Assembly: GCA_016195565.1 (NCBI GenBank)
Contig: JACPZK010000002.1
Coordinates: 1 to 44,421, forward strand
Length of the DNA: 44,421 bases
Reading direction: 5' to 3'
Origin: Nitrospirota bacterium
GTDB taxonomy: Bacteria > Nitrospirota > Thermodesulfovibrionia > Thermodesulfovibrionales > UBA1546
Position 1 is the first letter of the stretch. Each line of letters begins with the position of its first letter. The notes beneath the pieces are model-generated. The model saw only the letters and a program-made list of their open reading frames with translations, had not been told where the DNA came from and did not search any database. Positions 26,582-27,663 of the stretch are shown here, in pieces. Made by a program: the position numbers and the translations under genes.

Positions 26582-26986
26582 CTAGGCCTCTCTCCTCGGA
26601 GAGTCGCCTGAGGCGACGTTTTTTTGCTCTGTTTTTTCATCCGCCGCGGCGGACGCGGCGGCTTCCGCAGAAGATGACTTCAATGCCGCCTCTGCCTGTT
26701 TCTTTTCCAGTTTAATGACCATGTATTTCACTACAGGGTCAAAGACTTTATAATAGTCTTCAAGCTTTTTTATTGCTGCTGAAGGCGACTTAAAGACAAG
26801 GAGAAGATAAAAGCCTTTTTTCTGCTTCTTAATTTCATAGGCGAGTTTCCTTCTGCCCCACACGTCAGTCTTCAAGATCTCTCCGCCGGAATTTGTTATG
26901 AGGTCTTTTATCTTGCCTGAGGCTGTCTCAATCTCTTCGTCGCCGAGAGATGCATTTAGGATTACGATGTTTTCATAGATGTTCAT
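26582..26986 (-). CDS. rpsF: 30S ribosomal protein S6
   Basis: 134 residues. The S6 fold is seen as NIYENIVILNASLGDEEIE, WGRRKLAYEIKKQKKGFYLLL and VVKYMVIKLEKK. A C-terminal extension of about 30 residues is Ala/Glu-rich and ends in SPRREA. Its DNA includes GC-rich palindromes (CGCCGCGGCGG and GTCGCC-TGA-GGCGAC) that may derive from repeats. AAGGAGGTGTT precedes the start. It heads the operon with a good promoter. Confidence 0.96.
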   Translation of the reverse strand: MNIYENIVILNASLGDEEIETASGKIKDLITNSGGEILKTDVWGRRKLAYEIKKQKKGFYLLLVFKSPSAAIKKLEDYYKVFDPVVKYMVIKLEKKQAEAALKSSSAEAAASAAADEKTEQKNVASGDSPRREA

Positions 26987-27011: not shown

Positions 27012-27028
27012 CCCCGAGCAGCTCGGGG
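27012..27028 (-). promoter_or_regulatory. GC hairpin in the rpsF leader, possible S6:S18 autoregulatory site
   Basis: On the minus strand CCCCGAGCTGCTCGGGG forms a short strong stem about 25 bases before the rpsF start. S6:S18 in other bacteria binds a leader hairpin with a CCG element to repress its operon. The hairpin contains CCG, but I cannot confirm the consensus fold. Confidence 0.35.
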
Positions 27029-27098: not shown

Positions 27099-27112
27099 CC
27101 CGATCTACTCTT

Positions 27113-27289
27113 TAAGGAGGCTGTGCCTGGATTAAGGCAAGATTCACGGGTCTGTCAGAATAGGGGCTGAAGTCTCTCGGAGCGGATAGCCCCGCATGGG
27201 AATTTGCAAAAACTTTAATATATAGTGCTAACATCGGCAGTGTTACAGCGGTAGTTTAATATTGCCGAAAGACAGGCACAGCCTCCTTA
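27113..27289. ncRNA. candidate structured RNA closed by a perfect 17-bp inverted repeat
   Basis: TAAGGAGGCTGTGCCTG (27113-27129) and its exact complement (27273-27289) close a 177-base element. Inside, GGCAAGATT (27136-27144) pairs with AATATTGCC with one mismatch, leaving a symmetric 6/6 internal loop. A further hairpin has arms GGGGCT / AGCCCC. This long rod with internal bubbles resembles 6S-type RNA in outline, but no conserved 6S sequence was recognised. A MITE-like insertion is the main alternative. The right arm includes the HU gene's stop codon (TAA), so the strand of transcription is undecided. Confidence 0.4.
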
Positions 27290-27565
27290 TGAATTCAGGA
27301 GTTCCCTGAGTTCTTTCCCAACCTTGAAGTGGAGCACCTTCTTGGCAGGCACGTCAACGCTTTCGCCTGTCTTGGGGTTTCTTGCCTTTCTCGGGTTCCT
27401 TGTCTTCAGCCTAAAATTCCCGAAGCCCCTTATCTCTATCTTTTCTCCCCTCTGAAGCGCTTCTTTTATACTGTCAAAAACCGTTTCCATTACTATCTCT
27501 GTCTGTTTCCTTGTAAGTCCTTCAACTTTTTCAGATACTTTGTCTACAAGAAGTGATCTTGTCAT
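27287..27565 (-). CDS. HU/IHF-family DNA-binding protein
   Basis: About 92 residues from the ATG at 27565, chosen because AGAGGAGG is just upstream; an in-frame ATG 8 codons earlier is inside a repeat. The family pattern is complete: MTRSLLVDKVSEKVEGLTRKQ, GEKIEIRGFGNFRLKTRNPRKARNPKTGESV, VPAKKVLHFKVGKELRELL. It compacts and bends DNA as a dimer. The stop codon TAA is the end of the 17-bp inverted repeat that follows. Confidence 0.95.
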   Translation of the reverse strand: MTRSLLVDKVSEKVEGLTRKQTEIVMETVFDSIKEALQRGEKIEIRGFGNFRLKTRNPRKARNPKTGESVDVPAKKVLHFKVGKELRELLNS

Positions 27566-27579
27566 AATACCTCCTCTAA

Positions 27580-27663
27580 GAAAATTCAAAATTTAAAATG
27601 AAAAATTTAAAATCAACGAATTCTATATTTTTGATTTTGCCGTTTATTTTTACTTTTTAAAAT
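27580..27663. repeat. AT-rich AAAATTCAAAATTTAAAAT repeat
   Basis: Arms AAAATTCAAAATTTAAAATG and TTTTACTTTTTAAAATAC-like flank the centre. It lies upstream of the HU gene and is part of the same AT-rich family seen at six other sites in the window. Confidence 0.7.

Follow-up and report, generated by a model that had tools for sequence, protein, structure and literature searches.

A 177-base stretch between two genes of a Nitrospirota genome can be drawn as a long rod, and the question raised by this locus is whether the rod is a structured RNA, as the original prediction proposed with 6S-type RNA in mind, or a mobile repeat, which it named as the alternative. The element occupies positions 27113-27289 of the window (the whole stretch of DNA analysed, 44,421 nucleotides), and the plus strand, in window terms, is the structured one according to the covariance model and the fold described below. 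It sits between two minus-strand genes: an open reading frame at 27287-27565, which from its sequence we take to be of the HU family, and, downstream of it on the same strand, one at 26582-26986, which from its sequence is presumably rpsF-like. As had been noted, one end of the element coincides with the HU stop codon; the minus-strand TAA comes from the element's own end. The original prediction also put the element beside an rpsF promoter, a wording to be corrected to a position between the two genes, any such promoter being putative. Our preferred answer, with a probability of roughly 0.55, is that the element belongs to a non-autonomous family of mobile hairpins of the Thermodesulfovibrionales that has moved as a folded strand. 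Past mobility and selection on a single strand are supported directly, and the moving form is probably folded single-stranded DNA (ssDNA) handled by a putative enzyme in trans.

The structural parts originally proposed are all present. The closing stem is formed by a 5' arm, TAAGGAGGCTGTGCCTG (27113-27129, plus strand), and a 3' arm (27273-27289) that is its exact reverse complement, and pairing does not extend outward beyond these 17 bp. It leads into a symmetric, purine-rich 6x6 internal loop, GATTAA (GA-TT-AA, 27130-27135) facing GAAAGA (GA-AA-GA, 27267-27272), with a central UU/AA step. Both sides of this loop are kept across copies as GA-TT-RA facing GA-AA-GA; read on the plus strand (GA-UU-RA/GA-AA-GA), this corresponds to two tandem G.A steps flanking two U-A pairs, the second of which is often A.A or A.G. 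The second stem, GGCAAGATT (27136-27144) with AATATTGCC (27258-27266), is defined by fold and covariation and pairs at 8 of its 9 positions, the exception being a single G.A. The base of the apical part carries the conserved motif CACGGGTC (27145-27152), which is present in most distant relatives, and a second motif conserved in relatives, GGTAGTTT (27250-27257), lies ahead of the 3' arm. The inner hairpin (27163-27193), seen in the sequence and in relatives, has arms GGGGCT (27163-27168) and AGCCCC (27188-27193), which enclose GAAGT facing CGGAT and a terminal CTC-TCG-GAG. Its internal loop, GAAGU/CGGA(U), is kept in L223-L225 and other copies though the inner helix has been replaced. Both internal loops resemble tandem G.A motifs, probably of the sheared type. 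Between the inner hairpin and GGTAGTTT lies a variable middle region (27194-27249) that is poorly conserved in an alignment of 48 copies.

The element is not alone. Blast finds 25 matching stretches in its own genome (G000), where, besides the window copy, 14 are near full length at 78-84% and one is at 76%; a covariance model, which matches the window copy at 27116-27287 (plus strand) with 153.9 bits, counts 18 copies there. Numerous identical copies had been expected to speak against a structured RNA. Many copies were indeed found, but they have diverged (76-84% to the window copy) with the fold preserved, so that this argument does not apply cleanly. Blast also detects copies in all eight genomes of the genus that were examined (2 to 24 each) and matches in 11 of 16 genomes of the family. 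Under strict filters, a first covariance model has hits in 30 of the 176 Thermodesulfovibrionales genomes searched (16 of 85 genera of this order); a second finds it in 26 of 395 genomes across the phylum, every one in this order, with no relatives in the other orders among the 395. A laxer model search gives 33 copies in G107, 23 in G113, 19 in G005, 18 in G000, 16 in G001, 11 in G027, 9 in G034 and three each in G013 and G029. Several of the 33 matches in G107 (L253-L266) lie at contig ends, and they share flanking repeats of up to ~290 bases. An exact 26-base pattern matched 34 stretches across a named genome collection, all from metagenome-assembled genomes labelled Nitrospirae, Nitrospiraceae, Thermodesulfovibrionales or, once, Nitrospinota. 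Carriage by a phage or plasmid was rejected, since the phage and plasmid collections hold no match to the element and no viral contig contains the 26-base pattern.

For alignment, fragments and edge copies (e.g., L017-L019, L023, L024, L069, L101, L107 and L110) were excluded, leaving 73 copies. Seventy-two of these had enough flank to be grouped into 50 loci by shared flank words, which may have merged a few non-orthologs whose flanks have repeats in common. Conservation was followed in alignments of 48 and 22 chosen copies.

Sister species reveal how the window copy arrived. The HU-rpsF junction is an empty site of 0 to a few bases in G001, G002, G004 and G007, is filled with about 190 bases in G000 and G005 and retains only a short relic in G006. 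Since sister species lack the element at this junction, it was inserted there, in the lineage of G000 and one sister. A second copy, L012, is present in G000 only; its site is empty in G001, G005, G006 and G007 and holds a different insertion in G003. No target duplication is visible in these events: direct repeats beside the 73 copies are no more frequent than after swapping of flanks, and none is seen at the two aligned empty sites (HU-rpsF and L012). Because the 13 bases adjoining the element (27100-27112, strand unassigned) are missing from most empty sites, and because weak conservation extends into the flanks, by ~6 bases on one side and by ~10 on the opposite one, the element may in truth end slightly beyond the stem, and these 13 bases are possibly part of the inserted unit. 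Two further repeats occur in the same neighbourhood. A small palindrome, CCCCGAGC-A-GCTCGGGG (27012-27028), lies between the element and rpsF and is variable or absent in relatives; copy L074 also contains CCCGAGCAGCTCGGG, and L016 has a close variant of it. Upstream of HU, an AT-rich stretch (~27578-27661) matches many places in the genomes of the genus and is thus another dispersed repeat.

The fold is retained while the sequence changes. When 22 copies are aligned by sequence, two-sided changes occur in 16 of 36 pairs, and pairing is retained in 93.1% of cells, compared with 88.0% after shuffling and 36.9-51.0% after sliding (0 of 500 shuffles reach the observed values). A second model, built from 26 relatives, yielded a wide alignment of 85 copies from many genera, in which 94.9% of 2543 stem cells pair (61.8% shuffled, 38.9-50.1% slid), 30 of 31 pairs show two-sided changes (841 two-sided cells against 236 shuffled) and the covariation score is 0.812 versus 0.210; such a model-fitted alignment leans to the structure of the model, but the 22-copy set nevertheless agrees. 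The top ranks of a mutual-information scan are 11 annotated pairs, and the extra covarying pairs outside the structure mostly extend the stems or seem to reflect subfamilies. Turnover is most complete in G034, where the outer ~10 stem bases are unique in each of six copies and still paired.

Orthologous loci give a more varied picture. At the window locus, 5 of 34 pairs differ between L001 (G000) and its ortholog L076 in G005; all five still pair on the plus strand, and in two cases both partners have changed. Other orthologs within the genus speak against this: they have few two-sided changes, and some of their pairs are lost (L064/L074, for example, has 6 of 36 pairs gained or lost). The pair L287/L296, with seven two-sided changes, was rejected as orthologous proof of compensation: the L287 interior is 0.850 identical to L296 and slightly nearer to other copies (0.871 and 0.854), so that independent insertion or conversion may have intervened. 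L286/L306 turned out not to be the same locus.

Selection acts mainly on one strand. The plus strand of the window copy folds with -75.1 kcal/mol, whereas 200 dinucleotide shuffles average -47.76 and none is as good (z -7.1), and the minus strand with -60.7 kcal/mol (z -5.7). Of the two strands, the plus strand gives the stabler fold in 68 of the 73 copies when folded as RNA and in 70 when folded as DNA. After removal of one reverse-strand duplicate of L231 from the wide alignment (84 rows remaining), G.T occurs in 115 cells of the plus strand and the mirror-image A.C in 27; counted by pair, 21 versus 4 favour G.T (p 0.0009). The 50 loci of the genus give 83 versus 20 cells and 17 versus 5 pairs (p 0.017), and both p values are optimistic, as the strand and orientation counts cover related copies. 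Since stem partners change together and wobble is tolerated mainly on this strand, the plus-strand fold is under selection. A cruciform or a double-stranded palindrome would give symmetric wobble, and the selected form is therefore taken to be the window plus strand as a single strand.

Because the shape is kept even where the letters change completely, the element has the appearance of a small mobile unit acting as a folded single strand. As we picture its movement, by analogy with REPINs, it would travel as this folded strand, most likely as ssDNA, and a putative enzyme supplied in trans would recognise the shape rather than the stem sequence. Candidate recognition features are the tandem G.A internal loop, the GAAGU/CGGA loop and the motifs CACGGGU and GGUAGUUU. 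Copies would then survive where they do least harm, just behind gene 3' ends, and gene conversion between copies could exchange their interiors. The observed positions are as follows: at 48 of the 50 genus loci, gene 3' ends lie at medians of 17 and 15 nt from the element and gene 5' ends at medians of 93 and 48 nt, and outside the genus the median distance to gene 3' ends is 14 nt. It counts against this mechanism that the Y1 transposase (PF01797) has no gene in G001, G004 or G007, of which G001 is rated 100% complete and carries 16 copies. G000 has seven Y1_Tnp genes, none at the coordinates of copies. Dependence on RAYT was thus rejected as a general rule. IS200/IS605-type elements use the lagging-strand template. 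Judged by GC skew, 13 of 17 copies have their structured strand opposite the leading strand and 4 do not, a count that leaves out L328, L329 and also L321, which has two copies in opposite orientation, and that is confounded with gene strand; taken at face value, it does not place the structured strand on the template that these elements use.

The main rival, which we regard as possible but rather doubtful, is that the element is a dispersed structured non-coding RNA: the plus strand would be transcribed, and its fold would work in place, as a trans-acting small RNA or as an antisense RNA at gene ends, mobility being a matter of the past. Equally tentatively, the copies would then make up a new, order-wide, multi-copy class of structured RNA that is expressed from the plus strand, selected in place and also able to spread through genomes. 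A fold specific to one strand would suit RNA no less than ssDNA. Strand-specific wobble tolerance counts in favour of RNA, as do the purine-rich internal loops and invariant loop sequences, which are typical of it; the two-sided changes between orthologs at the window locus point the same way. Some orthologous copies are also more conserved than their flanks, which speaks for a role in place: the elements of L295/L299 are 0.969 identical (flanks 0.776 and 0.845), those of L289/L308 0.936 (flanks 0.845 and 0.891) and those of L233/L293 0.970 (flanks 0.528 and 0.921). At L287/L296 (0.758) and L227/L228 (0.864), element identity is not above that of both flanks. Such conservation counts against the mobile hairpin, as selfish mobility alone would not predict it.

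Transcription signals, on the other hand, do not favour an RNA gene. Using approximate matrices for sigma-70 alone, we found no enrichment of sigma-70-like promoters upstream of either strand in 112 copies, nor an enriched terminator signal at the ends of the structured strand, and T-runs downstream are few. Where the neighbouring genes are codirectional, 20 of 27 cases in the genus have the plus strand as the antisense strand; outside the genus the split is 16 antisense to 13 sense (n=29), and the orientation bias is therefore not general. Rfam gives no match at gathering score anywhere in the window. At E<=1, five copy loci are still without any match, and in 19 loci of relatives no match covers a copy; the two obtained there correspond to a tRNA and to a plastid family that scores below threshold and overlaps the tRNA. 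A known Rfam family was rejected on these grounds. A description of the family was not found in the open-access full-text literature either, and as far as Rfam and this literature extend, the family is previously unlisted. The broader prediction of a structured nucleic acid finds strong support in covariation, and the 6S identity does not; of the two readings originally offered, RNA and mobile repeat, each is half right. A small ORF or peptide was also considered and rejected: AGGAGG is present at the arm ends, often together with GTG, yet in many copies this codon has been replaced (GTA, GCG).

We consider it improbable that the element is an ordinary MITE of a DDE transposon, with the fold a by-product of long terminal inverted repeats. 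Perfect 17-bp terminal inverted repeats, a length of 177 bp (~180 bp, below a few hundred), the lack of an ORF, dispersal and empty sites are all as expected for such an element, and the mobile-repeat alternative of the original prediction is itself right, as ~18 copies in the own genome and empty sites in sister species indicate mobility. Its MITE component fares less well, as target duplications are not found in the 73 copies. Moreover, stem sequences turn over with pairing kept (the six G034 copies with their unique outer stems are an example), wobble is asymmetric, and the loci read include no longer relative whose arms enclose an ORF; the end pattern, with <=2 mismatches, occurs at 21 sites in the own genome, part of which were read for ORFs. 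The MITE reading is already hard to hold. We give just as little credence to the idea that pairing is kept by mutation, through template switching that perfects quasi-palindromes, instead of by selection. Many stems are perfect and some arms have reverse-strand matches, but template switching should correct both strands symmetrically, contrary to the excess of G.T over A.C (115 versus 27), and the conserved internal mismatches stay uncorrected.

It is very unlikely that the element is a folded recombination site resembling attC, belonging to an integron-type system, placed after stop codons and active on its bottom strand. Conservation of structure rather than sequence, a structured strand that is often antisense to the preceding gene, and stop codons at a median of 15 nt would suit such a site, but the element inserts alone, without a gene, a gene 3' end is missing on that side at 15 of 48 loci, and neither cassette arrays nor integron boxes were seen in the loci read. 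A 6S RNA or 6S paralogue, which the rod-like outline and length had suggested, has a negligible chance, as the element is present in many copies and is not matched by the 6S family model (RF00013), and the genome has a separate 6S gene elsewhere (G000:C6:292593-292779, 83.7 bits, above the cut-off).

Among known repeats, the ERIC/IRU elements of enterobacteria (127 bp) resemble our mobile hairpin in being dispersed, intergenic, imperfectly palindromic and of similar size, and no mover is known for them. The host phylum is different, and for the element studied here compensatory stem turnover and strand asymmetry have been measured. REPINs, as described in PMC3116915, are predicted to form hairpins in ssDNA or mRNA, show compensatory changes and are linked to RAYT transposases. 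Our element is like them in being extragenic, with inverted arms, a predicted ssDNA or mRNA hairpin, compensatory changes and non-autonomous spread, and an inverted doublet likewise forms a hairpin with compensatory changes. It differs in having no consistent tie to RAYT (Y1_Tnp) genes, which G001 lacks despite its 16 copies, and in its greater length (155-185 bp), its single long rod, inner hairpin and purine loops, and its strand-asymmetric wobble. The pneumococcal BOX, RUP and SPRITE repeats, as PMC3049150 presents them, are typically <200 bp, tightly folded, of old proliferation and modular in their interiors, the last of which parallels the interior swaps among copies of our element. They differ in their unrelated host and in being described there as having features in common with MITEs.

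Bacteria commonly carry small palindromic repeats, yet a single-stranded fold of one strand has rarely been shown to be the target of selection. For this family, hundreds of natural two-sided changes would define the recognised shape, and filled and empty sites are available in sister species. Movement without an obvious transposase, and whether copies have become host RNAs, are thereby open to test.

Some copies appear to be modular. L020 (G000) has arms identical to those at the corresponding locus in other species (L091, L095 and L111) and a different interior, and L075 (G002) and L013 likewise share arms and differ in interior between species. Since two loci have common arms and different interiors, exchange between copies is indicated, which points to interior swapping. 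L019, L020, L075, L023 and L024 have the same arms, or one of them, with another palindromic interior (AGAGCAGCAG.. repeats). A different dispersed repeat, CATTCCCCGA..TCGGGGAATCCAG, is found in L017 and L205; it is joined to a truncated copy in L017 and, in G003, occupies the L012 site. Family f5 (L285-L290, L299-L302) represents a subfamily with a near-invariant hairpin, GGGGCAAAGTAACGACTGCCCC, in which CTAATTA replaces GTAGTTTA.
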